Shown one piece after another: positions 13,821 to 35,142 of a stretch of 64,000 nucleotides of DNA. This DNA is from Paramacrobiotus metropolitanus (lineage: Eukaryota; Tardigrada; Eutardigrada; Parachela; Macrobiotidae). Each line of letters starts with the position of its first letter. Position 1 is the first letter of the stretch. The position numbers and the translations under genes are program-made. Below the pieces are notes generated by a model. It did not search any database and was not told the DNA's origin. It saw only the letters and a list, made by a program, of their open reading frames with translations. The stretch spans positions 248,001-312,000 of the forward strand of contig NW_026570243.1 of the NCBI RefSeq assembly GCF_019649055.1, in the 5' to 3' direction.

Positions 13821-14258
13821 AGTAGTATCCCGGGTATACCTGACCAGTTTTTTTTATCCGGGGGTCCAAATTTTGGGACCTAGGGGATAATTTACGGTCT
13901 TAAGGTATAAACAACGTGTGGATTAAGTATAGATTTTTATAACGTACATGCAATACCGTAGCAACAATATCTATAAGTAAAAGGGTAATCAAACACGATT
14001 ACCTGGATAATCAAAACCGATTATTTGGATAATCAAAACTGATTATTTGGATGATCGAAACCGATTACCTGGATAATCAAAACCGATCACCTTATGTACG
14101 TACAGCACCGCAGTAACGATATACTGAGATAACAACTAGGTATATAAAGCAAAATGCCCTCACATTGTTTGGTCAAGATTTCCTTGACTAGTTTTAAAAC
14201 AGTCCTAATATTACCTTATGCCAATAACTGTACAAAGGTTCTCTTTTGCAAAAAACGA
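13821..14258 (+). repeat. Left terminal inverted repeat of the Polinton (~438 bp)
   Basis: It matches the right repeat (35,143-35,601) in inverse orientation from AGTAGTAT inward to TTTTGCAAAAAACGA. It contains five 22-bp dyad units (13,983-14,097) and a TATATAAAGC box on the plus strand near 14,140, so it looks like a terminal promoter that fires inward. The arms have drifted by point changes and differ in length by about one dyad unit. Confidence 0.92.
13983..14097 (+). promoter_or_regulatory. Array of five 22-bp dyads (left TIR)
   Basis: Units of the form GGATAATCAAAACCGATTATTT repeat at exactly 22 bases, two helical turns. Each unit contains TAATC and its inverse GATTA around an AAAAC core. 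The array ends about 45 bases before TATATAAAGC. The same arrangement recurs three more times in the Polinton, so it is probably a binding platform for a transcription or replication protein. Confidence 0.75.
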
Positions 14259-14623
14259 GAGAAACCGCACGGACAATCCCGAGGAACTCTTCGCGTCCGC
14301 CTGCATAGTAACACCTGTAGCCGTCGTGAAAAGCTTGACCTCGGCTTCCTCTCGGTCTAATTGTCCCTGCCATCGCTCTGATAGAAAAATGATTGTTCGG
14401 TAATCCCAACGTATTTGTGGTGTGCGACGTGTTACATGACGTGTTACTGGATTTGTCGTTGGCATTTTCATCTGAGTGAGCGATCGTATTAGATGCGGTG
14501 GCAATAGCAAATCCTGTTCATTGTACTGTTCCGTTTCGAATGCGCCGCGACGGTTTAGGTTTAACCAAAAACGGTTTCATCCTTGCGGCCGTGAAGTCCG
14601 TGTTGTGGGATTTTACCAGTCAT
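14211..14623 (-). pseudogene. Small Polinton gene of unknown function, one frameshift
   Basis: A TATATAAAGC box on the minus strand (14,644-14,653) precedes an ATG at 14,623. About 20 codons follow, then a frame change near 14,562. A long open segment comes next (FETEQYNEQDLLLPPHLIRS onward, with RTPQIRWDYRTIIFLSERW) that ends inside the left terminal repeat. It encodes about 130 residues, basic and rich in Thr/Arg, with no known domain. Its promoter is of the dyad-plus-TATATAAAG type, with the dyad array at 14,764-14,890, the same type as on the polymerase side. This suggests early expression, but the function is unknown. The TATA-to-ATG distance is only about 21 bases, so the true start may be further in. 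Confidence 0.5.
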
Positions 14624-14643
14624 TCCAAGAAAAGGCTCTCCAA

Positions 14644-14890
14644 GCTTTATATATCTGCCCTGCTGTAAAAAAAATTCTGTCAGGGAAGAGGAAGCACAGC
14701 CACCGCCCACTACCCGCACGCGTTAGCCAACTATTATGATCGGATGGTTGTGTTTGGAAAACCTGGGTAATCCAAACCGATCACCTAAGCAATCCAAACG
14801 GATTACCTAGGTAATCAAAACCGATTACAATTGTACTAGCTGAGGTAATCATAACGGTTTACCTCTGTACAAGTGGAGGTTATCAGAACC
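14644..14890 (-). promoter_or_regulatory. Dyad array (14,764-14,890) with downstream TATATAAAGC (14,644-14,653)
   Basis: Five degenerate 22-bp units of the TAATC...GATTA dyad lie upstream, on the minus strand, of a TATATAAAGC box that precedes the small gene at 14,623. The same two elements occur together in both terminal repeats and near 22.2 kb. Confidence 0.65.
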
Positions 14891-14943
14891 GGTTAGTTTT
14901 TATACATGAATCACCGTGGAACAAAACACTCGTAGTGTAGTTT

Positions 14944-15459
14944 TTACTTCACTGCTGAAATTTCTGTAATTTCAAAATCAAAATCCACACCGTGCTTTGT
15001 GCTGCACCGACAAATAATCTTGGAAAACCAGTTACGTCTAGGAGAACTGTTCCAGTCTGCTATGCTACCATTGGCATGACCGTAATAAATGGTTGAAATA
15101 AGCGCTCCTTCCTATACAGTTCCCAGAATTCCAACCGTCGCATTTTTGCTGCAAGAATAATCAGGACATAAGAATCGGGTAAAATTTTTTTTGTTTTTAT
15201 TTTTATTTGTAATTCTTATATTTTCAGTTGCAGTAGTGCAATATACTTACCTAACAGTTGAAACGTCAAACTGTTCAGCTGTTCGGTTTCGTATAGTGTT
15301 GTTCCAGTGGTCGGTTTGGATAATTTTTCCAATGCCTTCAGTGACAACAAACGCAGCAAAAACTACGAAAAACACAACGTAAAGATTGATTAATATCGCC
15401 TTTTCGCATTTTTGCTCAAGGTTACGCGCGTAGCACAACATGTGCTGAAGGTTAGCCAT
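14944..15459 (-). pseudogene. Polinton membrane protein, two exons, one nonsense codon
   Basis: Exon 1 (15,459-15,251) encodes a short cytoplasmic-type segment, then a strongly hydrophobic span (INLYVVFFVVFAAFVV, about residues 24-39), and ends at a consensus donor AG|GTAAGT. Exon 2 (15,148-14,944) follows an acceptor TTCTTGCAG and continues in phase. It carries one in-frame TAG after about 12 codons, then an outer-type segment with Cys residues (KIICRCSTKHG) and a TAA stop. The product would be about 135 aa with one transmembrane helix and several N-glycosylation-type Asn-X-Ser/Thr sites. A TATTTAAGGG box lies at 15,495-15,507 on the same strand. A single-pass membrane or envelope-associated protein is possible; no family is recognised. 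Confidence 0.55.
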
Positions 15460-15635
15460 TGTGAATTGATGGTATTAATCAGGCATACAAGCATCCCTTA
15501 AATAGCCTAGCCCAGTGTATTGTCCACGAGTAGTTCAAGATTTTTCCTACTTTTTGTTATGTTTTGTTATTAATATAATAAAAGTAATGCCAACATTTTG
15601 TTAAAGGTTATTTAAAAGTAATCCACCCTGATTAC

Positions 15636-15650
15636 TGTCTATTTAAGTGG
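15636..15650 (+). promoter_or_regulatory. TATTTAAGT box upstream of the ATPase gene
   Basis: CTATTTAAGTGG lies about 90 bases before the ATPase reading frame. Related boxes precede the membrane-protein gene (minus, 15,495-15,507) and the pX-like gene (16,284-16,312). The word differs from the TATATAAAG boxes that accompany dyad arrays. Confidence 0.4.
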
Positions 15651-15733
15651 TACATTTCTGGTATGCAAACTATGTACGCGCATTAATTTTCTTGCTGAAA
15701 AATGTTCAGTATAATGAATGATTATCCGCGCTT

Positions 15734-16268
15734 TTGCGCACCGTTATGTGCATTTGTGGGCCAACGATGTCGGGTAAAACAAATTTTGTTTTCACGCTCC
15801 TGAGAAACAGTACCTCCGTTTTTGATCAACAACCAACACGGATATTATACTGTTACGGCCAGTGGCAGAAGGGATTTGAGAATCTTCAGAAACCGGTTTC
15901 TCAAGTAGAATTCTTGCACGGTCTGGACGAACTCTTCAGTTTTGCAGTCAGTTGACAGTAAGGCTCGTACCTTGGTTATTATCGACGATTTGGCTACCGA
16001 CCTGTGCAAAGATGCTCGATGTTCGGACCTGTTTACCCGTGGAATTCATCATAAGAACGTTTCCGTCATTTTGCTTCTGCAAAATCTGTACAAACGAGGA
16101 AAATCCATGCGTGACATCACACTCAATTCGCAGTACTTGATACTATTTAAGAACGTCCGGGATGTCAATCAAATCGCATTACTGGCACGTCGAACCGGAC
16201 TGAAACATTTGGTCGACGCATACAACAAAGTAACATCGGAGCCCTATCAACCTTTGGTTTTGGACTAA
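15734..16268 (+). pseudogene. FtsK/HerA-type DNA-packaging ATPase, one frameshift
   Basis: This is the predicted genome-packaging motor of Polintons. The first segment has a Walker A motif, GPTMSGKTNF, near its N-terminus. The frame breaks near 15,945-15,955 at FSFAV. The second segment has Walker B (TLVIIDDL) and continues with HHKNVSVILLLQNLYKRG, the sensor-like region of this ATPase family, ending near 16,268. Combined length is about 178 aa, short but usual for Polinton ATPases (known about 200-300 aa). It opens the plus-strand virion block and has a TATTTAAG box upstream. Because the break separates Walker A from Walker B, this copy is inactive. Confidence 0.85.
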
Positions 16269-16283
16269 CGCCCAATGTGCCCC

Positions 16284-16312
16284 GATTATTTAAGGACCCG
16301 ATTATTTAAGGA
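16284..16312 (+). promoter_or_regulatory. Duplicated GATTATTTAAGGA box
   Basis: Two copies of GATTATTTAAGGA lie 16 bases apart between the ATPase stop and the pX-like gene. The word is the same class as the TATTTAAG boxes before the ATPase and membrane-protein genes. A promoter role is inferred from position and recurrence. Confidence 0.4.
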
Positions 16313-16385
16313 TACGATCTCATGTTTTACCGGGTGTACGAATGCTGATTTATCTTAACCGGAACGCAACAAACAGTTTACCAAA

Positions 16386-16719
16386 ATGTCGGAAAGGCTA
16401 AAGGCCTTAGCTCCCTTCATCATCACGCTGCAGCACCTGAAGCCAAAGCAACGGAAGGTCCTTGTGAGCTACCTATACCAAATCGCAGCCTAATGCACTG
16501 GAAGAAGTTGCGGTCAGTACTGTGAAAAACACCGTCAACCTAACGTCTGCAGAAGCAGATAAGTGTAAAGGTAAACGGTATCGGAAAGCATTAAAGCTGA
16601 TTGCCTTACGACGCTACCCCTTGAAAGTAAAACAAAAATTGATTCAGCAAGGCGGATCTATTGGAGCCATCTTACCAGTCATTGCCGGTTTCTTGACTTC
16701 TCTTATCGGAAATGGATGA
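16386..16719 (+). pseudogene. pX-like basic protein (adenovirus protein X/mu type), one frameshift
   Basis: The start MSERLKALAPFI with KPKQRKVLV close behind, and the C-terminal KQKLIQQGGSIGAILPVIAGFLTSL, match the general layout of the small basic core protein found in most Polintons and adintoviruses: Lys/Arg-rich, then a Gly-rich hydrophobic end. The frame shifts once near 16,485, so the first segment stops at a TAA after about 36 codons and the second is open to TGA at 16,717. Full length would be about 110 aa. In adenoviruses such proteins condense DNA in the virion. The stop overlaps the next ATG at 16,712. Confidence 0.8.
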
Positions 16720-17538
16720 ATACTTTGTCGTTCCACGCCGATTTATGGGAAAACGTCTCCATGAGCAGCTACAAATCAACAGCTACAAATCCCAGAAGCC
16801 TAAAGCGTTCTATCTTTGGACGCCTTCGTAATTCAAACACTCCAACGTACTGATATAAGCGAGTATGAAAAAGCCAGTTAGCTAAGTAGTATCCTGGAAC
16901 GCTTCCTTGCTTTGGAACAAAAATCCATTCCTGATGAAAATCCACAGACGTAACCACATAACCGCTACCAATAACTGCGGAAAGAAATCCACTGCCCCCA
17001 GTACTCCAACAATATTCCCGATTGCCACCGCAAGCGATGGTACTTGAGACACAGGATTTTGAACAACCAGCTCCTCAGAAACGACAGAAGCCAGAAGACT
17101 TTGAAGAAGCTCTTCCAACCAAACACCCTCGAGAACCTTTATTCCCATCCGATATCCCCGCCAAAGGACAAAAGCGGAATCACGACAGCGATTTTGAAGA
17201 CATCAGCAAAACAAAATCAGCGCGCATTCCTTTGTTTCCTGCGTCGTTACCAAAAAAGATTAAAACGGCATCCAGACGGGAGCCCAGAGGTGCGGCCACC
17301 AAGAACTCCCCGCCTGGCGCTTTTTCCACCGACCGCACCAAGAAAGGGTCAGAAACGACAACCCGAAGGCACTACAAACCCAACGTATCCGCATAAGCGA
17401 CCTCGGCGACCGCTGTTCCCACTAAGCACACCTCTATGTGGAAGAAAAAGAAAGGCGGCAGAGATTGAAGGCCGTGTTAGGAAACTGCGCTCGCGTACCG
17501 TCCAAAAAAAACGGGTGCGCCCAGAATACAGTGGATAA
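16712..17538 (+). pseudogene. Basic repeat-containing core protein, several frame breaks
   Basis: The segment starting at 16,712 reads MDEYFVVPRRFMGKRL and is open for 39 codons, resembling the N-terminus of a small Polinton core protein. After breaks, the region 17,022-17,538 carries four copies of a motif with consensus PR-PLFP followed six to eight residues later by GQKR or similar. Two copies are in one frame (REPLFPSDIPAKGQKR; ARIPLFPASLPKK) and two in the next (PRLALFPPTAPRKGQKR; PRRPLFP). This shows one shift near 17,280. The product is Lys/Arg/Pro-rich and likely DNA-binding within the virion. The four-fold motif is not one I know. It may be one gene or two. Confidence 0.5.
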
Positions 17539-17567
17539 CCTTGGCGTAATGGCTAGTCTACTACCCA

Positions 17568-18681
17568 GTGTTTTGCGGTTTTGCCGAATATTTAAGATCA
17601 ACTGCGTATCAACGTGCTGCAACAAAAGCGATGGAGAAACTGATGAAACGATACCTCAATCCACGCGATTCCAGCGGTCTTGGAGGCGTAGAAATGTTTC
17701 GAAGAAGTCTCAAGATCAGAGCAAACAAACAGAAAGCACAGGAGATTCTGCAGGAGATCGATGCCTACACTGTGACCAAAGAAAATCGCCGGAGGTTTTG
17801 CGCGCAATCGGATCGTAGTAACCAACCTTCGCCAGCAGTACCAAGCGGATCTGGCTGATTTATTGAGATATTCCAAAGAAAATGATGGATACAAATACCT
17901 ATTCTTTGTGATTGATTGCTTCTCCAAAAAGCTAAGCATCCAACCGATGAAAACCAAAACGGCCAAAGAAACCAAAAATGCCTTGTCGCAGGCCTTTGAA
18001 GAACTGGGTGAACCGGAAAAATTGCAGTACGATAAAAGAACCGAAGTTGTTAACGCCACGGTCAAGACCTTCCTGAAAGAAAAAGAGATTCATTTCTTTA
18101 CATCGAAAAATGACGACATTAAATGCGCCATGGCGGAACGCGTCATCCGCACCATCAAAACACGGATGTTTCGTTTGTTTCGAGCGCGAGTGTCGACGCG
18201 ATACATTGACAAACTGCAAGACTTGGTGTACTCGTATAACCATTCCAAACATCGTACCCATGGGCTGCGACCGGTTGACGTCACACAAGACAATTCGCTA
18301 GCGGTATTCAACAAGTTGCATCCTACTAAAGAGGCGCGGCGACCTCGGTTCAAGGTCGGCGATGCGGTTCGCATTGCCGTGCACAAAACCAAGGTGGAAA
18401 AGGTATCGTATCGGTTTAAGGAGGAGGTTTTTTACATCAGTAAAGTCATTTCGCATACCGTACCGGTTTACCGACTACTGGACTACCAAAACCAACCCAT
18501 CCAAGGGATATTCTACGAACACGAACTCTCCAAAGTATCGCACCCGGAGCAGAAGGAACATACCATTGACCGCATCATTACACGCCGTGGTCCAAAGATA
18601 CTAGTACGTTGGTTAGGTTACGGACCTGAACACGGTTCCTGGATCAAGGCATCATGTATGAAGGAGCACCGTTCTACGTGA
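17568..18681 (+). pseudogene. Polinton retroviral-like integrase (DDE) with C-terminal chromodomain, one frameshift
   Basis: This enzyme family joins the element ends to target DNA. The N-terminal part has YLNPRDSSGLGGVEMF, the helical pattern of Polinton integrases. The frame shifts by one near 17,797. After it the rve core is complete: the first Asp in QADLADL (about 17,848), the second in QYDKRTEV (about 18,030), and the Glu in MAERVIRTIK (about 18,137). A C-terminal chromodomain is clear (ILVRWLGYGPEHGSW). The second Asp motif has DKRTE where DxGxE is usual, an extra hint of decay. It overlaps the next gene by 28 bases. It follows the core gene and precedes the penton-like gene, as in many Polintons. 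Confidence 0.92.
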
Positions 18682-19623
18682 CGCTGCCGAGCGATATCGC
18701 TACGGACCCCAGCAACACTTCGTCCAACTGGACGACCAAACTGAAGCATCCCTTTATCCTGAAAGGAAAATGGGAAATGGCCCTGGTTGAACTACAGTAC
18801 CTCAACTCCTTTTTTACTCTTCTCGTTGAGCAGAAGATTGAGGTCCACATTGTACGGGAATTCAAGTTAAAGAAAGACGAAGCAAAGTTCCTGGAGTCTG
18901 CTGACCAAGTGGTTCACACGGACGAGATTACTATATCTCCTGGAAATTACAAAAATGCGGAATTATTACTGAAGACCATTAATTCACTGGTACCAAGAGT
19001 TGAATCGTACATGGTAGACGATACCGTGCGCGCTGACAAGAGCGCGCTGACTGCCGACAGAGCCTTTACTGTACAATTGCTGACCCCCACCAGTCATCGG
19101 GTCCGATTGAATATTGGCAACGATCGGGTTTCCGTCGTTTTTCTTCCTTCGTCGATAGATATACAAAAGATGCTGGGATTTGAACATAGCGTTCTAAAAC
19201 CGGATGTACCGTTGGAGAGTAACAGCAATGCATTTATTGGTCCATTTCCTATGGAGAAAAGACGTCGGTATCCAGTACCTGTCGTTTCTAGCCAAGCCTC
19301 CAAATCCAAAGCTGACCACTTTCATTTCAGAGCGACCGGTCAACACTCTTCTGGGCAATCAAAGCCTGTTTGTCTACAGTGATGTGGCCGACTACAGCTT
19401 GATTGGAGATACCGCAGCGCAGTTTTTACGTTCCGTGCCTATTAGAGGAGAAGTGAATCAAATTGTCGAGGCGAGATTCGACATTCCTCACTATGTTCCA
19501 GTATTACGACAACATTTCGAAACCATAAAGTTGACGATTGCCAACGACCTGGGAGACGACGCCAAGTTCCAAACTGGAAAATCTCTGGTAAAGCTACATT
19601 TTCGACCGCAACGACTTTACTAA
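18654..19623 (+). pseudogene. Penton-like minor capsid protein, one frameshift
   Basis: The start MYEGAPFYVTLPSDIATDPSN with TTKLKHP and WEMALVELQYLNSF matches the opening of Polinton/adintovirus penton-type single jelly-roll proteins. The C-terminal segment has LFVYSDVADYSLIGD, VPIRGE and PHYVPVLRQHFETI, also diagnostic of the family. The two parts lie in different frames, with the shift near 19,250-19,270. Expected product is about 320 aa, forming the fivefold vertices of a capsid. The ATG lies inside the integrase 3' end, and the stop is one base before the next ATG at 19,625. Confidence 0.85.
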
Positions 19624-19624
19624 A

Positions 19625-20023
19625 ATGCCTCTGGTGGAGTACGTGCCGGATCCCTGGCGATACGAGAACGTCCTTTTGAGTCAGACGGGTGGCAGCGCAC
19701 TCATTCGCTACCGTGGCACTCTTCAAAACGGATCGGGTTTCCCGCAGATTTTGAAAAATCTGTTTGCCAAAATATCAGGATTTGTTCAACCAATATTACG
19801 GAAAGCCGCACCTCATGCCAAAGCTGCTCTTGAAGCGGCTACACCAAATCTGCAAGAAGCGGCGACCGGGGCTATTAAAGAGGTAGCCTCACATGCGGGA
19901 ACAGCCATAGAAAAACGTTTCGCTACCCAGGAAGGAGAAGGTGTTCGAAAGAAGCGACGAGTTCAACACAAAGTTGTTCGAGTGAAACGTATACCGCCAA
20001 CCAATATTCCCGATTTCTTTTAA
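19625..20023 (+). CDS. pVI-like minor capsid protein
   Basis: This 132-aa frame is intact. Residues near 35-42 (TLQNGSGFP) resemble a maturation-protease-type site preceding a predicted amphipathic helix (ILKNLFAKISGFVQPILRK). An Ala-rich helical middle and a very basic C-terminus (KKRRVQHKVVRVKR) follow. This is the layout of adenovirus pVI-like proteins, which line the capsid interior and are cut by the viral protease. A protease gene is present 1.3 kb downstream. It sits tightly between the penton-like and capsid genes, with one-base and three-base gaps. Confidence 0.75.
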   Translation: MPLVEYVPDPWRYENVLLSQTGGSALIRYRGTLQNGSGFPQILKNLFAKISGFVQPILRKAAPHAKAALEAATPNLQEAATGAIKEVASHAGTAIEKRFATQEGEGVRKKRRVQHKVVRVKRIPPTNIPDFF

Positions 20024-20026
20024 AAA

Positions 20027-21363
20027 ATGGCCATGCTGATGATGGAAAATTCTGAGCCGGCCATGCAACTGGAGAACCAGCTCTTTGCACTACCAGCCAC
20101 CTTAACGGACCGCTGGCGCACGGAACACGAAAAGCTTAATCCCACAACGGTTTTGACAGACAATGGTTCCGCCGGCGATATCAACTTTTTCATCCCACCA
20201 AGCACCTCCGGACTGCTGAGTTTAGCGGATATGATTCTGGAATTAGAAGTGGGTATTAAAGTCCGCGAAACCACCGGCGAATGGGAACTGATCACGACAG
20301 CGGATAGTGTGGCACCAGTCAACAATTTTTTACACTCCCTGTTCTCCTCTTGCCATGTGACCGTAGCCAACCGACTGATCTCGGATGCCGCTACATTTTA
20401 TCCCTACCGAGCCTACTTGGAATCACTGCTGTCTCACACACTGGACGCCCAACAAAGCCAACTGACATCCGCCGCATTCTATTACGACAGCCCGGGGTCT
20501 TTTAACAGTGAAACAGCCAACAACGGTTAAAAAAATCGAGCAGCACTATTTAATGCCGGCCAGTACGTGCAGCTTTCCGGCAAACTGTTTTTGGACCCTT
20601 TTGATCAGAGCAAACCGCTGTGTACTGGTGTTCCCGTCAACATTCGCCTAGTGGTTAGCCGACCGGAATTTGCCCTACGCGTATGGGATACGGACACCAC
20701 CAAGACATTCAAACCATTTATCCGGAACGCTCTCTTGTCTATCCGCCGCTACATTCTATCACCGGATTTTTTGACTGCCGTAGCCGGAGAACTCCTGAAA
20801 AAGACTGTCAAATACCATATCAAGCGCGTAGTGATGCGCGTTTCGGACATTCCCCAACGAACCCAGAGCACTGTTGTCAGCAATTTGCAAATTGGTCAGA
20901 TTCCAAAGGTGGTCTTTATTGGCTTTGTTGACAGCGAAGACTTTCACGGATCGCAAAAAAAAATCCTTTTAACTTCCAACACTTCAACGATACACAATTC
21001 AGCGTCGAAGTTGACGGCCAAAGCTATCCGACAAAACCATACACTGCCGATTTTGACCGCAGTTTGTCTCCGGAGTGCTACGACGGGCTACTAGACACTC
21101 TGGGACACCGACCCAGCCTGCAAGGCGGCTTGCCTTTCAATCGGACCCAATATAACGACGGATAAACCATTTTCGGATTCGACCTGACTCCAGGACATAC
21201 CGGCCGTGGACCACTGACCCTGATAAAGCAAGGAAACCTTAGTGTCTCCGTGTCTTTTGGGAAACTATTGAAAAGTACCATTATGATGGTGTGCATGCTG
21301 GTCTATGACAGCATTATTGAAATCAATCAGCATCGACAGCTGATTGCGGACTTTACAACATGA
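20027..21363 (+). pseudogene. Major capsid protein, hexon-like double jelly-roll type, three breaks
   Basis: Hallmarks of the Polinton major capsid family are in order: an N-terminal strand-rich region with VAPVNNFLHSLFSSCHVTV, then FYPYRAYLESLLSH and QSQLTSAAFYYD; after the breaks LDPFDQ, VNIRLVVSR, NPFNFQHF and FGFDLTPGHTGRGPL. The reading frame is interrupted by an in-frame TAA at about 20,528, a shift in a nine-A run near 20,957 and an in-frame TAA at about 21,163. It ends in a TGA at 21,361. Full length would be about 445 codons, within the family range. The protease ATG overlaps this stop (ATGA). The gene supports a virion-forming ancestor. Confidence 0.92.
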
Positions 21364-21872
21364 ATACACAGGAAATTACCTCAGCACTCCATGGAAATCC
21401 TCTGACCACGGCGGTATTTCGTGGGGTCTACGCCAGCGATCAAGTTCCAGCGACATTGGCACCTTTTCCAGGAGCATGTGTAGTGAATACCGACCCAGCC
21501 GACCAAGAAAGCGAACATTGGACTGCGCTGTACCAGGAACGGGCCGGTAAAATTGAAACGTTTGATTCGTACGCGAAATGATTTGCAAGGTATTCTCAAC
21601 ATTTTGCGCTACTGGCGGCCACCAATGAAATAACTCTACAAAATCAACAGTTTCAGTCTGAATTTAGTACTGTGTATGGACAAAACTGTTTGTTTTTTAT
21701 TCTACGACGTTGTAGTGGTGAATCATATACTAATATTGTGCATTTGTTTACGGATAGCCGAATCAGCAACGACAAAATGGTTTGTCAGTATGTTAATTCT
21801 TTTTTCGACATTAGTACAACCATGGTGGACGAAGCTCTTCTCCGACAAATGTGCAAGCGTTTAATGAAATAA
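21360..21872 (+). pseudogene. Adenain-like maturation cysteine protease, one nonsense codon
   Basis: Catalytic His is visible in EHWTALY, the acidic partner region in FDSYA, and the Gln/Cys pair in YGQNCLFFIL, in the order of adenovirus-type (C5/Ulp1-fold) proteases. A TGA at 21,579, in frame, separates the His part from the Gln/Cys part. The frame then continues uninterrupted to TAA at 21,870. Length is about 170 aa, short for the family (about 200). The enzyme would process capsid precursors such as the pVI-like protein. It closes the plus-strand virion block, and its ATG overlaps the capsid gene stop. Confidence 0.88.
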
Positions 21873-21919
21873 GAAAATTCACTGACCCATTTCTGTTAGT
21901 CTTACTGTAAAACAGCATT

Positions 21920-22092
21920 TCAGCAATAATCAGCAGAAATAATTCCCCCCACATTGGCACGAATTTGATCTCCATGTTTAATCAAAAAACCAGCCACATC
22001 GAGGTCCAGAGCTTGCTCAACACTAGCTTATCCAGCCCAAACAAACAAGCGGCTGGCGGTCGTTGGGATGTCAACAGATCCATAAATTCCAT
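21920..22092 (-). pseudogene. Possible small minus-strand gene with TATATAAAG promoter, one frameshift
   Basis: A TATATAAAG box (22,156-22,164, minus) and an adjacent dyad array (22,216-22,460) point to a transcript running left. An ATG at 22,092 opens MEFMDLLTSQRPPAACLFGL. The frame then shifts near 22,030 to ALDLDVAGFLIKHGDQIRANVGG and ends at a TGA at 21,920. It would encode about 57 residues. A plus-strand frame over the same bases (21,965-22,165) looks less protein-like and has no promoter. Function unknown. Confidence 0.35.
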
Positions 22093-22155
22093 GGTGGAGA
22101 AATCAAAGTTAGAAAAGGCAGAACAACTGGTTGTGGGACTACGCTACAGCACCAA

Positions 22156-22460
22156 CTTTATATAGGGTCACCGCCGCTTGCTTCGTAATCATACTTCCAC
22201 GTCTCGCGAGTACGTAGGTAATCAATTTGGATTGCCTCTACTCGTACAGAAGATAATTGGTTGTGATTACCTGTGTAACCAGTTTTGATTATCTGTATAA
22301 TCGGTTTCGATTATCTGTATGATCGGTTGCGATTACCGATACAACCTGTTTTGATTATCTGCATAACCGGTTTGAATTACCTGTATAACTAGTTTTGATT
22401 ATCTGTATAATTAGTTTCGATTATGTGTGAGCACAAAAGATAATCGGTTTTCATTACTTC
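22156..22460 (-). promoter_or_regulatory. Long dyad array (about ten 22-bp units) with TATATAAAG box
   Basis: Units such as GATTATCTGTATAATCGGTTTC repeat every 22 bases from about 22,216 to 22,460, in the orientation opposite to the left terminal repeat. TATATAAAG lies about 50 bases beyond the left edge on the minus strand. The array separates the leftward small gene from the rightward genes at 22,609 and 23,034, so it could serve both directions. Confidence 0.65.
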
Positions 22461-22608
22461 TACTAGTACAGAAATGTGATCAGTACAGCAAGTACGAGTG
22501 TAATGATCAGGTCTCAAAACGAAACGCATCATTTGAACAGATGTAAGTTTGTTTTGTTGCTTTATTGAATAATTTTTCACTTGTTTTTGCTGCTTTATTG
22601 TAGTAGAA

Positions 22609-23091
22609 ATGGCTACGCCTTGCATACTGGATACCGACTGGTTCGTTATCAATGGTGTTAAATACATCAAGCACCTCGCCTTTTACTGCCCGGACAAAGC
22701 GGAACAAACCCTGTACACGTTTACGCTACCACGTTTTGCGAACCAGCACACCGCCGAGCTGAAAAGACATGCGCGCCAATCGCACGGTTTACTGTGGAGT
22801 ACGAAAGGAGACTATCGGCACAATCATGTGACCTGCGCCTTGGAAGACATCTTCCGACGAATTGGGCGACCCAGCCAAGTGCGTTTTTTTGCCAAGGGTC
22901 CTAAAAAGTGCCGGTTGTTGGAACAGTATTTACCGGAGGTAAAAAACCTTGAGTCCTTGGGCTGCCTACCATAACACAGGCTCAGCTCGCTACCTGTCTC
23001 GACACTGCGGAAAGTGCCCGAAAGCCGTTCGTTTTGCTTTGTGGTACCACTGCGATGCCAAGAATCACCAATGTCGTTGCCGTTGCGGATT
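22609..23091 (+). pseudogene. Cys/His-rich protein of unknown function, one probable frameshift
   Basis: The intact segment (22,609-22,974, 121 aa) starts MATPCILDTDWFVING and contains HARQSHGLLWS, which resembles a motif seen in uncharacterised proteins of arthropod mobile elements that may have an exonuclease-like fold. This is a recollection of a pattern, not a proven match. Near 22,955-22,970 the frame appears to shift into a Cys-rich tail (HCGKCPKAVRF, HQCRCRCGF) that runs to a stop near 23,091 and could bind zinc. It overlaps the start of the TBP-like frame. Function unknown. Confidence 0.45.
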
Positions 23092-23624
23092 CAAACTGTA
23101 CCCTGGATCTGAAGAAAATTGAGAAAACGCTACCAATGGCTCAATACATTCCGCAGCGATTTTCCGGTCTTTTGGTGCGCATTATTGAGCCCTTTAAAGC
23201 GCACTGCCAACTTTACCGCAATGGAAAAATTACAGTTAACGGAGCTCGTTCGGAGGACCAGTCCCACGAACTGATGAAAAAGGTTGTTGGTATGTTGGTA
23301 AATATGGGCTATCCCTGTGCGGTTTCGGGATATCGCATTGTAAACATTGTAGCTAACCACACGTTTCCCAACCGTGTGCATATCGAAAAATTTAGCGAAT
23401 TTATTAAGCTTGAATATACACCGGAATTGTTTAGCGGGCTTGCAATTAAGCTGAAGGTGGGTCGTGCTGTGCTGTTTCCACCAGGCAAATGCAATTTTTT
23501 GGGCTTAAAATGCTCTTCTGATTTACAAAAGGCTGTGAAACGTGTCGAGTTCACGCTTCAACAATTTAATAAATTCAAAACGACGTATATCCCTACGGAA
23601 GTGTGTTGTATTCCGCATCAATAA
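23034..23624 (+). CDS. TATA-binding-protein-like (TBP-fold) protein encoded by the Polinton
   Basis: The 196-aa frame reads as a TBP core: NCTLDLKKIEK, then PQRFSGLLVRI, then GKITVNGARSEDQS, followed by the second pseudo-repeat with ELFSGLAIKLKVGRAVLF and GKCNFLGLKCSSDLQKA. The paired R/L-F-SGL and GK-----G elements about 90 residues apart are the two halves of the saddle-shaped DNA-binding fold. Cellular TBP cores are about 180 residues, so the length fits. Divergence is high (for example PPGKCNFLG in the second half). The gene is intact, unlike most neighbours. It converges with the polymerase gene and overlaps its 3' end by 32 bases, so it belongs to the Polinton and is not a stray host exon. 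The true start may be the second Met (MPRITNVV). Confidence 0.8.
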   Translation: MLCGTTAMPRITNVVAVADSNCTLDLKKIEKTLPMAQYIPQRFSGLLVRIIEPFKAHCQLYRNGKITVNGARSEDQSHELMKKVVGMLVNMGYPCAVSGYRIVNIVANHTFPNRVHIEKFSEFIKLEYTPELFSGLAIKLKVGRAVLFPPGKCNFLGLKCSSDLQKAVKRVEFTLQQFNKFKTTYIPTEVCCIPHQ

Positions 23625-24462
23625 TACGACGTTTGTCATAGGTCACTTGGAATCGTTTCTGCATGCTGGCAGTATATATCTTCAAATCTTTCTTTACGCG
23701 CTTAAGAATATCAGGATATTGAATATCAATGCTGCTACGCGTTTCCAATATTTTCAACATGGTACCAAAATTAATTTGCTTACTCGTTCGTCCATTCAAA
23801 GTGAATCCTTTGACTTTTGCCACTGTTTCGCCGTCGTTGGTGACGTACGAGTAGGTTTTGGCTTCAAGACTAATGAACTGTGTAATATATTGACCAGGTT
23901 TAAGCTCGTTCGTTAGGTCTCCTAGGAAACAACCAGTTGGAAGGTCCACATGTCCGGGTTTCGAGACAAAAAAAATTGAGTCTGAAAAATTGCTATTTTA
24001 TTAAACAGACATAAAAATTAACATGCGGTAAAATACCTGTGTCAAAGTACAGCAAACGATCCTTGACCATGTCTATAAATTTGTATAAATGCAGTCTTGC
24101 CCAACATGTTGTAAACCTGTAATAATACTAATATAATACATAGCTTTGGTATATAATAGAAAATTAAAAGAATAGGACCTACGCCGCAAGACGACATTAG
24201 TGTTTGGATTCTGATCCACAAAACCACCTTCTTTCCTGTACGTCATTTGGACAACGTCTTCGGAAAACATGTCCCAAGAATGCACGTGGCATTTTCCAGA
24301 CAACAACATGTCGTAAAACTTGTCCGGTTCGGTCACATAAACTGTATTCAGTTTATTATCTAGCATTCCAAGTCGTCCCCAAAAACTGCAATCATAAAAA
24401 ACCTTTTGGGTACTGGAACGAATTTTACTAGTAGTATGGGGGGCAGAATAGCATTATTGCTC

Positions 24463-24592
24463 TGATTGGTCAGACACGCCCCCTTCTCTGATTGGTCAGA
24501 CACGCCCCCTTCTCTGATTGGTCAGACACGCCCCCTTCTATGATTGGTCAGACACGCCCCCTTCTCTGATTGGTCAGAACAGAACCGGACCA
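24463..24592 (+). repeat. 26-bp subterminal tandem repeat, 4 full copies plus a partial (left arm)
   Basis: TGATTGGTCAGACACGCC starts at 24,463, 24,489, 24,515 and 24,541, with a partial copy at 24,567. GATTGG is a CCAAT box on the opposite strand, so each unit carries CCAAT next to a GC-rich GGGGGCGTG. The mirror array at 31,549-31,688 has one unit more. Confidence 0.9.
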
Positions 24593-24763
24593 AGACCGAG
24601 ACCGAACTGAACCGAACCGTTCACAGCCGGACTTTACCCCTTTCTTTTGTTTATTTTTCCCCACCCTCTTTTATTCATTATTCAGACAGCATACGTATAT
24701 GCAGGCACGGCGGTGCATTGTTTAACAAGTAAACCAAAATATAAAATCATTATAATGGACCCA

Positions 24764-25189
24764 TTATCGAACAAAGAAAAGGCGACTGAAAGTCCGGTTA
24801 TTCTTCCAGTGCGTTGTGTGAATTTCCGCCATCAGAGCAAGAAATTCTGTATATGGCAACGTTATTATGCGGCCAAACTGGGAAAAACGGATCATACGGC
24901 CGCGTTTTTTATGAATTCTAAGCGCCAGGCGTAAACATCCCGGGCCAGCCAGTCCAATCCTTTTCAAGCCATCACCGTTAAACCCACGTTCCAAACACCC
25001 CGCCCACGGTCCACCATAAATCATTTCCATGAATGCATTCAGGTGTGTGGATTGTAGCCGTACGCCTACTAAATGTACTAAAAAACAGTACTCGTATTTT
25101 GGACACCAAAACGCTATAATTCTTGGTGTAATTTTATATATTGTATAGCCCCGAAACGTTCCTATGATTTCTACACGGTTGTCAGACAT
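24764..25189 (-). CDS. 141-aa ORF in the left arm, unknown protein
   Basis: The protein starts MSDNRVEIIGTFRGYTIYKI and is identical to the one at 30,936-31,361. It is read outward, toward the element's left end. It is basic, with RIHKKRGRMIRFSQFG followed by IITLPYTEFLALMAEI near the C-terminus, a beta-strand then helix pattern vaguely like PC4-type single-strand DNA-binding domains. The resemblance is weak. An AATAAA equivalent lies about 65 bases past the stop on the minus strand (24,696-24,701). It is the only long frame kept intact in the element, and being in both arms it would be preserved by arm-to-arm conversion. Function unknown. Confidence 0.6.
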   Translation of the reverse strand: MSDNRVEIIGTFRGYTIYKITPRIIAFWCPKYEYCFLVHLVGVRLQSTHLNAFMEMIYGGPWAGCLERGFNGDGLKRIGLAGPGCLRLALRIHKKRGRMIRFSQFGRIITLPYTEFLALMAEIHTTHWKNNRTFSRLFFVR

Positions 25190-25980
25190 TTTGCAGAGAT
25201 GTAATGAGTAACTAAACTATGTGTTCGCTTTCAGTGAGCGCGTGCATAGCTATTTGACCGGGGGCAGCTGTCGGTGGTGACGTAACTGGCGATGAGTCAT
25301 TTAAACTTTTCTCAGAAAACAGTACTCGTACCTTCACCCCACTGCACCGGCACATCACCGGGCCCCACATCGTACAAGTAGGGTAGCCATGTACTGTATG
25401 TATTGCACTGCCACTACGTACAAGCTAATTTATATTGTACGAGTACTGTACTCGTATAGACAGAGCGCGCCAACAGCAAGCTTTCTGATTGGTATCAGAA
25501 AGAATCTGGCAGCGCCTAGTGATGTGACTTTTCTCAGAAAAAAGCGGCTAATACACTGCACCGCACATCACCGTCTACTGCACAACACGACACCTCAAAG
25601 GTATGGTAAACTGTACCGAACCACCATGTATAGGTACTGTATGTATTGTACGATCGCTACTCGGGAACAAATATTATTGTACCAGTACTGTAGTTCGCAC
25701 TCTTATGGACAGAGCAAGCAAACAGGAAGCTGTCTGATTGAAATCAGATAGCATCCGGCAGCGACTGTAAGCATGCTGTCTGTTCGGTCATATTTTTCTG
25801 ATTATTTTTCTGATTATAATCGTGTTTTACTTTTACCTATGAGAAATCAGTACAAGATACACATACTGCAAATAACACGGTGTGTGTACTGTACGTTCCA
25901 AATATTCCAAATATTCCAAATATTGTACTCTTACCGGTTCCACATTAATTATTACCACTAGTGGGTGCGAGTATGAGCTG

Positions 25981-28900
25981 GAGGATTCCGTACAGTTTCA
26001 TTTTAAAATACGTAACTTTTTCTTAAAAAAATAAATTACGAATTTTGAACACCTTAATTTCTAAAACCGCACACACAATCAGTCCTTTTACACCGTATTA
26101 CACCGAATTCAGTACCGTGCACCGCACCACCTCGGGGCGCAACATCATGATGCACCGCACCGCACCTGATCCAGCACACACATTGTACCGCGCGGCATCG
26201 TACAGGTAGGGTAGATGAATAATTCATGTACTGTACTGCCACTATTCATAAAAATGTATATTGTACGAGTAGTGTACTTTGCACACATGTGGTCCGAGCG
26301 CTCCAACTGCATGCTATCTGAGTGAATTCAGGTGTCATCAGTCAGTGACTGTGCATCTAGTCTGTTCAGTCATGAGACTTTTGATGATCCAGCTGCGATG
26401 GCGATGAGTCACAGTGACTTTTTAAGACAGGACTTACAGAAAACAGTACTTGTACTTTATACCTGCACCGTATTTCACCGGCCTCCACACAGCAACGGCC
26501 TAACACCGCACCGGGTCAACACTACACTGCAGCGCAAAGGTATGGTAAACTGCACCTAAGCGTCAGGTACTGTATGTATTTTACTGCCTCTACGCGCAAA
26601 TAAATAATTATACGTATACGAGTACAAGCATGCAAATATTGTACTAATATTGTACGATAAAACATTTTTTGATTAACATTACAGACAAGTTTACTTGCAC
26701 CTATGAGCATTCAAAACTAGAGTACATACTGGTCAGCAAAAACAATATAGACGTACCGTGCACATCCACCGGCTCTCGCACAGCAACGGACCGGAGCCAA
26801 TTCCTTTACCAAACAGTCATGTGCTGCATGTAATGTACTGCCACTACTTGCAAAAATATACAATGTTGTACGAGTACTGTACTTTGCACCCGTATAGATA
26901 GAGTGCGGTAACAGCCTACGCGCAAACAAATATTATGGTACGAGTAATATAACTTACACTCGTATGGACACAGCGAGCCAACAGCATGCTTTCTGAAAAA
27001 AGTCAGATCAGCAACGATTGTGAGCAGGCAACCTGTCTGTATTTCCTCTCTCGCCCTTATGTATTTACATACAGAAGTGTAACTTGCTTTCTTATGTTTT
27101 CTTAGGTTAAACAGTTTTTTATATCTTCTTGAGTATAGTAAGTCCGTACTATTTTTAAGTCCGTGTGCTTTTGGATCCATATGACAGAGCCGATTTATGT
27201 AAGTGATTTGCTTGATCGCGCTAGCCACACCCGATTGGTCACAGCAGATGAAAACATTTTTAAATGTACCTTGCTGAATGTGGAGCGCCATCGCAACCTT
27301 AGTGCACCGTTACCGTAATAATGAAATAAGTCTGAAATTTTCTATCTCCGGACATCTGAACTGCGTGTAAGTAAGATCACTACTAAGTACTCTGTACGGT
27401 ACGTAATGAAGAGCTATTTCTTCTGCTGCCTTTGTCTGCAACTTTTTCCCCTTTCTGTTTGCAGTATCACACTCGCTCTTATAGTTCTAGACTGTATCGA
27501 TGGGTCATTTTTTAAATTGGAAACCAGTGTGTAACGTTAGTGTAGCGTCCATACAACCACATTCACTATAGTAGGTTTGTACCAATTATTTGATAAATGT
27601 GCAAAAAATGCGTTCGAAAAAATACCATCTGCGACACCGATTCGTCAAAAGGGCAATGCAGTTTAATGTAGTATTTTAAAGAAAAAAAATTGCAAATTTT
27701 TGACAACCAAACTTCATGTTTATCAATGCTTTCTATGTATTACCTATGAGAATTTGCAAACGAAAAACTACAATATCGTTTACCACAACAGTATGTTTTT
27801 GAGCGCAGATTTTAAAATTTTGATAGCTGAAACTTGTAATGTATTTTGTGAGAAAAAAGTGTACGTGTTTTAAAATAGAATTATACGATTTCCGTCGTAA
27901 AACTCCCAACTTCATACTCATACTCGCACCTACCAGTGGTTATAATTAAGTGTTTAGAACAGAGGATGTCCTTGTACGAGTACACATTACATTGCTGTTT
28001 GTATTCATAAATAAAACATGTCGTATCACGTTTGTGCCGGCACGATTGGCGATTTTGTTCTCTCGGGATCTCAGATCAGCTCGGGGGACGTGCAGCCGTG
28101 TACTAAAGTACCCTAACCAGATATATGATGTACATGTGCAAATATATGATAAAATTACCTGATGCAATAAATTATAATAAGCGAAATTAATCGTTGATAA
28201 TCACATTGCCACACTGCGTTCAAGCGATGATCCACTGGAATATTATACCGGTACCAGTTCAGTTCTTGAGCATGAGACTGAACAGCTGCCCTTGTGCAGT
28301 GGCGCTATGCGGATTACAGGAAACGGCATCAGATTGTATAATTTCACATATTACAGGAGAAAATATCAAATACCTCTCTTTTGTGGTTGAAGCATGGTAT
28401 CTGGACATTAATATAAATTATAATCATATCAATTATCAAATATCTGTTCATAGATATGCGAACAACATATGCTGCAAGACACTGGCGGCCGGCTGTTCCC
28501 ATCAGATTTGAACCTTCGTCACGGTATGTCTACATTGCTTGTGTCGCCCGGTATATAAAATGTGTTGTTTGCAGTAATAGATTTGCTTAGGTAAAAGTTG
28601 TCCTATCTGCAGTTTGAATTAGAAAAATAAGTCGTTTTATTTCAAAGATTGATGACTGAACAGACAGGCTGCATACAAACAGTTACCACCAATCTCGTAC
28701 TGCTACAATGTTTGCTCAGGCCAGTATAAATCCTGCGTTGTTTGCAGTATGTACACCAAGTTCTTAATTTTCACAGGTACAAGTGAAACTTTTCTGCAGT
28801 TTTATTCAGAAAAATAATCTGCTTCTGCCTGCAAAGTTTCATGACTGAACAGGCAGGCTGCATGTTCACAGTTGCTGCTGATCTGATTTCAATAACACAG

Positions 28901-30145
28901 CTTGGTGTTGGCGCGATCTGACTATATGAGTGCAAAGTACACTCTACTCGTACAAGATATATTTTTTTGCGCATAGTCGTAGTACAATACATAGAGTACG
29001 TGGCTGATTTGTCTACCTTACCTGTACGTTGCAGTGCTATGTGTGGGCGTTGCGTCGGGATGCTTGGTCCGGTGTGGTCCATTGCGGTGCGATGACCAGT
29101 GCGGTACGGTGCGGTGAAGGTAGAAGCAAGGTAGATAGTTAATAGAGATGCGACTCCCTAAAATCTGCAGCATGAGAATTCAGTACTTTTCGGCACGTTT
29201 GCGTCAAAAGCGTCAAGTTGTAAATAAGAGCCCGAGCGTACGGTAAGGCCTACAACCTCAACCGCTTAGAATTTTTTAAAACAGATTGCACATCTTTTTA
29301 TTAATTTTTCATGCTACCCATGCTCGTTATCGATATGAAATTATGATTTTTACGTAGGTCGAATTATGAATATGAGTGGGCCTTATGTAATTCGTAGAGG
29401 TAGTCCAAGTGTGTACGACTGCAGGGCGCAGCCAGCCTATCGCCAGCTCACTGCCTGCCTGACCTCTATGTATTCATACCCGATTCAAGCAAAACACTTT
29501 TACTACTTTACTCGCCTCCGATGTTTTTTGAAGGCAGGTATATAAACTGTGTTGGTTGCAGTATGCGCACCTAATACTAAATTTTCTTTGGATTAAGTAC
29601 AACTTATCTGTACTTTTAATCAGAAAAATAAGTTATTTCTGACCCAAAGTTTGGTGGCAGAACAGACAGGATGCATGCTTGCAGCCGGATTCCATCTGAT
29701 CTCAGACAGCACGCTGTTGCCGCGTTCTGCCATTATGAGTACAAGGTACAGTAATCGTACAATTTATATTTGTTTGCGAGTAGTGACAGTATAATACATA
29801 CAGTAGGTACTTTCAGTTCTGACTGCCTTATGATAAAGCAGCCCAACGGACTGTGCCTCATGCTCCTATGTGTCATTCCAAGATAACGCAAGCGTTGTGC
29901 ATTGGTTTGTTGCAACAGTCAACACATGCCCACTTTAAGGCAACATTGCCCAACGGTAAATCTAGTCCCGACTAGATTTTCCGTTGGGCACCGTTGACTT
30001 ATCCATGCATTGCGCGTGTTACACGCTGTACAAGTAGACTGTGAGTGCAATGGACTGCACTGCCCCGTTAATACCGTGCTATCGACGCTATGTAATAACA
30101 AATTTAGATTTGTTATTAGCTCATACTCGCACTAGTGGGTGCGCA
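25981..30145. repeat. Core of the nested element: diverged repeat modules, no recognisable gene
   Basis: The core is AT-rich. It contains degenerate copies of a module also present in both arms: TTGTACGAGTA-TGTACT, then GTATAGACAGAGCGC-CCAACAGCA and TTTCTGATT. Copies lie near 26,262, 26,870 and 26,938 in one direction and near 28,870-28,970 and 29,690-29,760 in the other, so the palindromic organisation extends, decayed, into the core. The longest frame (26,806-27,291, minus) spans such modules and is not convincing as a gene. Confidence 0.6.
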
Positions 30146-31721
30146 CAGCTCATACTCGCACCCACTAGTGGTAATAATTAATGTGGAACCGGTAAGAGTA
30201 CAATATTTGGAATATTTGGAATATTTGGAACGTACAGTACACACACCGTGTTATTTGCAGTATGTGTATCTTGTACTGATTTCTCATAGGTAAAAGTAAA
30301 ACACGATTATAATCAGAAAAATAATCAGAAAAATATGACCGAACAGACAGCATGCTTACAGTCGCTGCCGGATGCTATCTGATTTCAATCAGACAGCTTC
30401 CTGTTTGCTTGCTCTGTCCATAAGAGTGCGAACTACAGTACTGGTACAATAATATTTGTTCCCGAGTAGCGATCGTACAATACATACAGTACCTATACAT
30501 GGTGGTTCGGTACAGTTTACCATACCTTTGAGGTGTCGTGTTGTGCAGTAGACGGTGATGTGCGGTGCAGTGTATTAGCCGCTTTTTCTGAGAAAAGTCA
30601 CATCACTAGGCGCTGCCAGATTCTTTCTGATACCAATCAGAAAGCTTGCTGTTGGCGCGCTCTGTCTATACGAGTACAGTACTCGTACAATATAAATTAG
30701 CTTGTACGTAGTGGCAGTGCAATACATACAGTACATGGCTACCCTACTTGTACGATGTGGGGCCCGGTGATGTGCCGGTGCAGTGGGGTGAAGGTACGAG
30801 TACTGTTTTCTGAGAAAAGTTTAAATGACTCATCGCCAGTTACGTCACCACCGACAGCTGCCCCCGGTCAAATAGCTATGCACGCGCTCACTGAAAGCGA
30901 ACACATAGTTTAGTTACTCATTACATCTCTGCAAAATGTCTGACAACCGTGTAGAAATCATAGGAACGTTTCGGGGCTATACAATATATAAAATTACACC
31001 AAGAATTATAGCGTTTTGGTGTCCAAAATACGAGTACTGTTTTTTAGTACATTTAGTAGGCGTACGGCTACAATCCACACACCTGAATGCATTCATGGAA
31101 ATGATTTATGGTGGACCGTGGGCGGGGTGTTTGGAACGTGGGTTTAACGGTGATGGCTTGAAAAGGATTGGACTGGCTGGCCCGGGATGTTTACGCCTGG
31201 CGCTTAGAATTCATAAAAAACGCGGCCGTATGATCCGTTTTTCCCAGTTTGGCCGCATAATAACGTTGCCATATACAGAATTTCTTGCTCTGATGGCGGA
31301 AATTCACACAACGCACTGGAAGAATAACCGGACTTTCAGTCGCCTTTTCTTTGTTCGATAATGGGTCCATTATAATGATTTTATATTTTGGTTTACTTGT
31401 TAAACAATGCACCGCCGTGCCTGCATATACGTATGCTGTCTGAATAATGAATAAAAGAGGGTGGGGAAAAATAAACAAAAGAAAGGGGTAAAGTCCGGCT
31501 GTGAACGGTTCGGTTCAGTTCGGTCTCGGTCTTGGTCCGGTTCTGTTCTGACCAATCAGAGAAGGGGGCGTGTCTGACAAATCATAGAAGGGGGCGTGTC
31601 TGACAAATCATAGAAGGGGGCGTGTCTGACCAATCAGAGAAGGGGGCGTGTCTGACCAATCAGAGAAGGAGGCGTGTCTGACCAATCAGAGCAATAATGC
31701 TATTCTGCCCCCCATACTACT
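30146..31721 (-). repeat. Right arm of the nested element (~1.58 kb inverted repeat)
   Basis: Inverse of 24,430-25,980. It includes the mirror 26-bp array (31,549-31,688, six repeat starts against five in the left arm) and the second copy of the 141-codon ORF. It ends ATACTACT followed by the duplication TTTACT. Confidence 0.9.
30936..31361 (+). CDS. 141-aa ORF in the right arm, identical to the left-arm copy
   Basis: Same product as the ORF at 24,764-25,189, read outward to the right end. AATAAA lies at 31,450-31,455, about 90 bases beyond the stop, so a normal polyadenylated transcript is plausible. Both copies are free of stops and frame breaks although the surrounding Polinton genes are broken. 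This suggests the nested element is younger than the Polinton's decay or that the ORF is selected. No TATA box was recognised upstream. Function unknown. Confidence 0.6.
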   Translation: MSDNRVEIIGTFRGYTIYKITPRIIAFWCPKYEYCFLVHLVGVRLQSTHLNAFMEMIYGGPWAGCLERGFNGDGLKRIGLAGPGCLRLALRIHKKRGRMIRFSQFGRIITLPYTEFLALMAEIHTTHWKNNRTFSRLFFVR

Positions 31722-34700: not shown

Positions 34701-35142
34701 TACGTGCTGTAATACGACTGTGATGGCTATGGGTGCAGTTGAAAATGGTAGGGATTCCAAATCCATGGCCTTTATAAATTAGTATTACAGTTAACGATAG
34801 TCACATGGCTACACATATACTCGTCTTACCTTCACTGAGTATTTCGAGTGCAGTTAAAATTTTTTTCAAAATTTCGATCCGGAATCCGCAATGTGTATGT
34901 GATCAGCCACATTATCAGGAAAGCTATCCGGAAAATCTGCGAGCACATAACTTGCATTTTTGCAGGTCACATTTTTTACTGTTTTCTATTTGTTCCAGTT
35001 TCTAACAATGAACAATGGTCACACTTATATATTACGTGTTAACTACTACCTGCTTCACTAGTTCCGGATCCTTGAAGGCTATTTAGATCGTCTTTTTCTA
35101 GCTTGCGCTTCTTCCCTAGTTCCATCGTAGAAAACCACAACT

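Follow-up and report, generated by a model that had tools for sequence, protein, structure and literature searches.

All three nuclear RNA polymerases of eukaryotes work with the TATA-binding protein (TBP), which seldom changes at its DNA contacts. TBPs are also encoded by viruses, reportedly including B263R of African swine fever virus. Megavirus chilensis carries a TBP together with its own RNA polymerase subunits (PMC11464507; this and the following articles are cited from excerpts), and a virus-encoded TBP is reported for the Chrysochromulina virus CpV-BQ1 (PMC12085832). In mirusviruses a TBP gene cluster is present in 59% of the genomes, compared with 0% of those of Nucleocytoviricota (PMC10132985). 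Sporadic TATA-binding proteins are also known from heliorhodopsin elements with a putative origin in mirusviruses, and the excerpt of that article reports none for the Polinton-like viruses (PMC10675990). In beta- and gammaherpesviruses, BcRF1 or ORF24 binds the TATT boxes of late genes, which cellular TBP binds poorly, and BcRF1 and UL87 have only about 10% identity to TBP (PMC4893493). KSHV ORF24 reads TATTWAA and carries asparagine at V122 and T124, with polar residues at L114, L205, V213 and T215 (PMC12529657). Such late promoters with their TBP mimics are the closest parallel to the locus described here, which lies in a Polinton. To our knowledge, neither a TBP nor a PC4-like gene is among the standard Polinton genes, and no report of a Polinton TBP was found in the literature searched, which leaves out most subscription journals.

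The window, that is the whole stretch of DNA analysed, comprises 64,000 nucleotides of the tardigrade Paramacrobiotus metropolitanus (contig NW_026570243.1, positions 248,001 to 312,000). It contains a Polinton at 13821..35601, with terminal inverted repeats (TIRs) starting AGTAGTATCCCGGG and flanks GTATGA and GTAGGA, which form a 6-base target duplication with one mismatch. The left TIR (13821..14258, plus strand) contains a TATATAAAG box at 14141 and the right TIR (35143..35601, minus strand) contains the TATATAAAG box of the gene for protein-primed DNA polymerase B (pPolB), from 35260 on the minus strand; an extra TATATAAAG box lies at 14653 on the minus strand near the left end of the element. 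Similar to Polintons, Mavericks and adintoviruses, the element combines TIRs with AGTAGTAT ends, pPolB (PF03175), an RVE integrase (PF00665) and an A32-like ATPase with, by sequence pattern, putative capsid and protease genes. Giant viruses and mirusviruses also encode a TBP, but these are large viruses, whereas this element measures 14.5 kb without its insert.

On the plus strand, the A32-like packaging ATPase (15722..16268) is present as two overlapping frames, the second of which reaches 21.4 bits against PF04665 (cut-off 22.8; E 2e-4), and PF04665 was also found on several homologues. Further downstream are the retrovirus-type integrase (17776..18681; PF00665, E 3e-11), the putative minor capsid protein (mCP, 18654..19623), which consists of two overlapping frames and has 55 genome matches at E 1e-40 or better, the putative major capsid protein (MCP, 20027..21094), which has a broken frame here and at least 150 genome matches at set distances from TBP, and the putative adenain-like protease (21321..21872), whose frame is also broken. 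The labels mCP, MCP and protease are our assumption from sequence patterns and gene order; the capsid and protease frames of the window have no match above the Pfam cut-offs, and 21321-21581 has none. No RNA polymerase was found among the Pfam matches of the window frames scanned. A divergent PC4-like gene starts on the minus strand (21985..22092) and is truncated in this copy, with TATATAAAG 72 bases upstream, from 22164 on the minus strand. Tandem repeats of 22 bases (22253..22428) separate the PC4-like gene from the TBP operon, and a related array lies at 35309-35435. These repeats, of the GTTTTGATTATCTGTATAACCA type, flank the PC4/TBP and the pPolB promoter regions and may be activator sites.

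The pPolB gene runs on the minus strand as a 3' part (23593..24429) and a 5' part (31728..34800), the latter in several frames, of which 31845-32705 matches PF03175 at E 2.9e-18. The two parts are separated by a nested Polinton-type element (24430..31721) with the target duplication TTTACT. The nested element of 7.3 kb has the ends AGTAGTATGGGG and arms of approximately 1.5 kb that are 100% alike, each with one 141-aa frame; between the arms no frame above 170 aa is listed, and 26-base tandem repeats of the CTCTGATTGGTCAGACACGCCCCCTT type lie near both ends (24460-24578 and 31547-31691). Elsewhere in the window, the flanking frame 5796-6971 (DAYCHMTSRDG...) is closely related to a frame that adjoins a different Polinton (L064:2-376) and possibly represents a separate repeat family, and 50226-50837 is a minisatellite with GCAVP-type repeats coded in several frames.

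An earlier note, made from the letters of the window, had described an intact frame of 196 codons at 23034..23624 that encodes a TBP-like protein with two pseudo-repeats, sits among Polinton genes and overlaps the 3' end of the polymerase gene by 32 bases. All these points hold within the Polinton described above. Counted from a TTG, the frame extends over 196 open codons, and the ATG at 23055 is the likelier start, giving a gene at 23055..23624 (plus strand) of 189 codons; of 14 layout-A copies compared at this site (28 aligned), 13 also have the ATG there. The protein matches PF00352 in two stretches at E 5.5e-31 (106.7 bits, cut-off 22.9), and its best match in the PDB is 1vto_A (E 2e-23, residues 8-181). 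A profile of the window protein and 61 relatives (62 sequences) aligns with the PDB TBPs at E 1.9e-41 over positions 3-165 of 169; the profile alignment thus extends over nearly the whole core of the solved TBPs, and a saddle fold may be predicted from it. A chance match is excluded by these E-values together with the at least 152 non-host TBP places in the genome. The minus-strand pPolB frame reaches 23593 and the TBP frame reaches 23624, so that the two genes overlap by 32 bases here; in layout A, the arrangement of this copy, they lie tail-to-tail. Around the TBP gene the copy is decayed, with pPolB split by the nested element and the uncharacterised gene directly 5' (22609..22974, plus strand) interrupted; the TBP frame itself is whole. 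In other layout-A copies the Cys-rich end of this 5' gene overlaps the TBP start in a different frame.

The gene recurs throughout the genome. At least 152 non-host TBP places are listed, the one in the window included and second pieces of split matches left out, and at 133 of them at least one of pPolB, MCP and ATPase is matched no more than 25 kb away, a range that takes in at most 6.7% of the genome. All three markers are found within 25 kb at 65 places and none at 19, one of which (C140:250344) adjoins an ATPase frame, and at 40 of the 152 places an ATPase match is no more than 2.5 kb away. Since the counts of TBP, pPolB, MCP and ATPase are those of the matches listed, all are lower bounds. 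When 153 places were typed by gene arrangement, leaving out the second pieces of eight split TBP matches, TBP was found in five layouts, A to E, each with a set spacing. In layout A the MCP lies mostly 3-4 kb before TBP and pPolB mostly 1.5-1.9 kb after it on the opposite strand. The distance from TBP to pPolB is about 9.5-14 kb in layouts B-D, and in layout E pPolB lies mostly about 3-4 kb before TBP and the MCP 5-6 kb after it. Layout-E neighbours of TBP include a BIR (inhibitor of apoptosis) gene in L062 and L063 and an ADP-ribosylglycohydrolase-like gene in L065. A possible PC4 identity was also considered for the gene directly 5' of the layout-E TBP, which gave no Pfam match and, for one copy, nothing better than E 0.34 in the PDB; the 141-aa frame of the nested element is distantly alignable with it (31% to one copy).

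Polintons lacking the TBP were also considered, as 36 MCP, 43 pPolB and 49 ATPase matches have no TBP among the places listed. Three elements first counted as TBP-less were rechecked, and all three have a TBP just before the ATPase (one whole, one broken, one with only its end in the fetched stretch). Therefore, the remaining matches without TBP may reflect the extent of the lists. The search in related Polintons that the earlier note had proposed thus gave a recurrent gene, and its own counter-proposal, a single host-derived exon absent from other copies of the element, is excluded by the at least 152 places, the five layouts, the three rechecked elements and the rejection of a clade with the host TBP described below.

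Relatives were also found outside this genome. A profile search of public proteins yielded 105 proteins, 67 of which (P0003-P0069) were taken as the element-type family; these lie on public contigs, mostly from the sources ena, jgi and lgn, which are apparently metagenomes. Five contigs (20036, 16278, 14236, 13551 and 2581 bases) recur in the profile searches for TBP and for ATPase, as judged by identical base counts in both, and very probably carry both genes. For the ATPase the best 120 of 226 matches were paired in this way. Among the matches listed, such shared contigs make up four of the ten contigs of at least 12 kb that carry an element-type TBP (P0089 counted). No relative was found in the IMG/VR viral contigs scanned for element-type TBPs, and the phage records searched for one relative, P0029, contained none. 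A second divergent TBP clade (P0084, P0085, P0090 and P0091) stands apart from both canonical and Polinton TBPs.

The host TBP, on contig C4, is canonical in sequence, and its pieces lie in different frames, which would suit a gene split by introns. When 63 proteins were placed in a tree, all 44 element-type TBPs fell on one side of a branch with support 99/96, tardigrade and other element-type sequences were intermixed, and the host TBP lay among canonical TBPs; a long-branch warning applies to layout E in this tree. A second tree of 27 element-type sequences without long branches, from which four layout-E rows, P0103, P0097, P0068 and 12 further relatives were left out, gave support of 100/99. 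Forcing the host TBP into one clade with 15 tardigrade element TBPs of layouts A-D lowered lnL by 237.9 and was rejected (p-AU 1.4e-126). The phylogeny against the host TBP, also proposed earlier, thus places the element TBPs in a separate clade.

A codon model over 19 layout-A copies gave an omega of 0.145, or 0.113 without the first 26 codons, where the other frame overlaps, and fixing omega at 1 lowered lnL by 417 in layout A. Without these codons omega was 0.095 in layouts B-D (7 copies) and 0.074 in layout E (4 copies). Near-duplicates, with a likeness of 97% or more to a retained copy, were left out of these sets (10 of 29 in layout A, 13 of 20 in layouts B-D). A pairwise NG86 control yielded a median omega of 0.151 in layout A (range 0.086-0.828, 88 of 171 pairs usable), 0.29 in B-D (3 of 21 pairs) and 0.119 in E (1 of 6 pairs); high pairwise values would be expected for copies in decay after insertion. 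The comparison of dN/dS across copies that had been suggested thus indicates purifying selection, with omega of 0.07-0.15. Taken as sequences, the element TBPs thus make up a single clade that excludes the host TBP and has been kept by selection across five layouts. We infer an ancient origin of this TBP outside the tardigrade.

Similar to cellular TBP and TRF proteins (PF00352), the element TBP has two full-core pseudo-repeats and retains the intercalating positions and N69, N159, R105 and E188. It differs from them by T124N, T215L, V122T, V213N, L114Q and F116Y in addition to its separate clade. The changed positions are presumably DNA contacts, as in TBP-DNA structures. The table of TBP residues in the excerpt of PMC12529657 agrees with this assignment. 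Residues were surveyed on yeast numbering in the 67 relatives, 41 layout A-D proteins and four layout-E proteins, with gaps counted as misses; incompletely covered loci were set aside, as were 18 duplicates among 63 proteins. T124N is found in 67/67 relatives and 41/41 layout A-D proteins, V122T in 64/67 and 41/41, L114Q in 59/67 and 41/41, V213N in 61/67 and 38/41, T215L in 60/67 and 38/41, and F116Y in 62/67 and 41/41. None of the changes at 114, 116, 122, 124 and 215 was found in the host TBP exon or in eight other eukaryotic TBPs. In most layout A-D TBPs and relatives, the canonical minor-groove contacts V122, T124, V213 and T215 are thus replaced by T, N, N and L. Judged from its sequence, the element TBP is therefore a divergent member of the fold family, and its specificity is likely to be new.

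Other positions are mostly retained in layouts A-D and the relatives, namely N69, V71, F99, R105, N159, V161, F190, F207 and E188. At the intercalating sites F99, F116, F190 and F207 the window protein has F, Y, F and F; F99, Y116, F190 and F207 occur in 64, 62, 62 and 62 of the 67 relatives and in 41, 41, 41 and 40 of the 41 layout A-D proteins. The TFIIB contact E188 is retained in 61/67 relatives and 39/41 layout A-D proteins, and the TFIIA-side residues K138 and K145 are not conserved in element TBPs. The four layout-E proteins have Q114 (4/4) and L215 (4/4) but are without V122T and V213N; position 122 is I, 213 is V or T, 124 is N or I, and 116 is mostly F. The yeast altered-specificity mutant TBPm3 (V203T, L205V) reportedly targets TGTAAA, and V203T and L205V are common to many element TBPs; TGTAAA as a target was dismissed, as it shows no excess in element loci.

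Alignments upstream of the layout-A ATPase revealed one strongly conserved block, TATTTAAG, amid variable DNA. In 14 ATPase-centred loci, whose copies are related and include near-copies (L100-L102; L091 and L093), this box lies within 120 bases upstream of the start in 42 of 46 copies of four assembly-side genes: the small membrane gene (MANLQ, 12/13), the pX-like gene (11/12), the integrase (10/10) and the ATPase (9/11). One further ATPase copy, the tenth of the 11, has TATTAAAG instead. TATAWAA is found within the same distance in 0/46 copies. In the window, the boxes lie at 15497..15504 (minus strand), 45 bases 5' of the small gene MANLQHML... (start 15459); at 15640..15647 (plus strand) upstream of the packaging ATPase; at 16287..16310 (plus strand), where two boxes (16287 and 16303) precede the pX-like gene MSERLKAL... 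(start 16386); and at 17589..17596 (plus strand), 42 bases 5' of the probable integrase start MEKLMKRYL... (17631). Over 20 kb around the ATPase (6 layout-A loci), TATTTAAG occurs 28 times compared with 0.93 in shuffles (maximum 4, 30 shuffles), some of the 28 lying in coding sequence, such as a conserved box in the ATPase end. It occurs 0 times in 53 kb around TBP (15 layout-A loci; 2.5 expected). Beyond layout A any excess is weak, with 5 occurrences in 5 layout B-D loci (1.4 in shuffles, maximum 5) and one in 4 layout-E loci (1.03 in shuffles). Upstream of the layout-E ATPase, TCATTAAGC is found in L062 and L105 and CTATTTAGG in L063 and L066; L064, L065, L103 and L104 have neither. The lack of V122T and V213N together with the lack of a TATTTAAG excess in layout E would fit co-variation of protein and box, as seen in four proteins only.

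The PC4-like gene has a canonical TATA box (TATATAAA or TATAAAA) in 19/19 copies with a recognised start among the 30 loci scanned. In layout A the fourth base of the box is thus split by gene, being T in every box of the four assembly-side genes and A in 19/19 PC4-like genes. In the window and in 8/20 fetched copies, pPolB has TATATAAAG or GTATAAAA far 5' of what is probably its first intron, and the other 12 have no clear box assignment or have the region outside the fetched stretch; several of the sequences upstream of pPolB contain TATTWAA as well. In the loci L069-L088, a conserved AG|GT.TC..GA-like junction precedes the pPolB frame in many copies, suggesting an N-terminal intron. The promoters of the TBP operon are mixed, with CTATTTAAGG in layout C and TATAAATAG-like boxes in some copies; several copies, that of the window among them, have no clear TATA upstream. 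Because the layout-C operon has CTATTTAAGG, the TATTTAAG-type box would not be strictly late. Neither TATTTAAG nor TATAWAA was found upstream of the mCP (about 108 bases, 8 sequences), and the capsid genes may be co-transcribed. The PC4-like neighbour was compared in four fuller copies (L002, L003, L013 and L020), three of which match PF02229 at E 5.3e-5 to 5.6e-4 with 19.8-23.1 bits, below the curated cut-off of 25, and the fourth has no match; hhalign against human PC4 gave a probability of 77%. Judging by these matches, the element may encode a second transcription factor in this PC4-like protein.

Based on the protein family, the contact residues and the boxes, we propose, as the probable reading, that the gene encodes a Polinton-specific TBP working as the element's own core-promoter reader, with host and element promoter classes. 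Host TBP would transcribe the early genes (pPolB and PC4-like) from canonical TATA boxes. The element TBP, with its minor-groove residues rebuilt, would bind TATTTAAG of the ATPase, pX-like, small membrane and integrase genes and would recruit host TFIIB and RNA polymerase II there, leading to late expression; it may still use TFIIB because E188 is retained. The earlier note had suggested that the element may have supplied a promoter-recognition factor of its own, and this receives indirect support from the remodelled contacts and the TATTTAAG class. The matching altered start signal at several particle-building genes suggests that these Polintons run their own gene-switching programme.

Host TBP might instead read TATTTAAG as well, as an ordinary weak TATA box, so that the element TBP recruits the host polymerase and only raises dosage or widens the choice of promoters. 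TATTTAA is near to a TATA box, some TBP operons have a canonical TATA and those of layout C have TATTTAAG, and host TBP may bind TATTTAAG weakly. EBV BcRF1 binds TATA and TATT alike in vitro (PMC4893493, excerpt). However, the split of the fourth base by gene in layout A and the location of the residue changes at DNA contacts speak against this reading, which we consider unlikely. The retention of E188 in proteins with changed DNA contacts would also suit a decoy that draws TFIIB or other factors off host promoters and lowers host transcription. Such a role is quite improbable, as the DNA-reading residues are uniformly re-set rather than lost, three of the four intercalating phenylalanines are kept and the fourth is tyrosine, and a matching promoter class is present in layout A. 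There is a still smaller chance that the element TBP bends element DNA for replication, packaging or integration instead of acting in transcription; its tail-to-tail position with pPolB in layout A and its closeness to the ATPase at 40 of the 152 listed places would agree with this, but the neighbours vary by layout while TBP stays, the boxes are positioned 5' of start codons, and the TBPs known to us act in transcription. A recent capture of the host TBP or a functionless passenger exon, for which nothing speaks beyond presence in a host chromosome, is ruled out for the former by the trees and the AU test and has next to no credence for either, given the low omega, the relatives on other contigs and the five layouts.

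The proposed Polinton-specific promoter reader can be set beside the herpesvirus mimics. KSHV ORF24, EBV BcRF1 and HCMV UL87 have the identical T124N and polar residues at 114, 122 and 213 (PMC12529657, excerpt). In both systems canonical TATA boxes are found at the presumed or known early genes and TATT boxes at others, a resemblance of positions and promoters only. The Polinton genes with the box are presumably late, whereas the TATTWAA promoters of the herpesviruses are late (PMC4893493). In addition, ORF24 is a multi-domain protein without E188 (PMC12529657), whereas the Polinton protein consists of a plain TBP core and retains E188. The viral complex includes five further proteins. T124N and a TATT box in both suggest convergence, and we regard it as an evenly balanced question whether Polintons independently evolved the strategy of beta- and gammaherpesviruses, with a polar-interface TBP, a private TATT box, two gene classes and a PC4-like coactivator.

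With a plain TBP core, a family-wide change of contacts and a candidate target box in the same element, these Polintons offer a compact system for testing TBP specificity. If the proposed reading is true, small virus-like transposons would encode part of the pre-initiation complex themselves and put it to work on the RNA polymerase II of the host, providing a simple parallel to the late-promoter system of herpesviruses. The genes of Polintons would then be expressed in a regulated early-late order, a point relevant to the question whether Polintons are active viruses.
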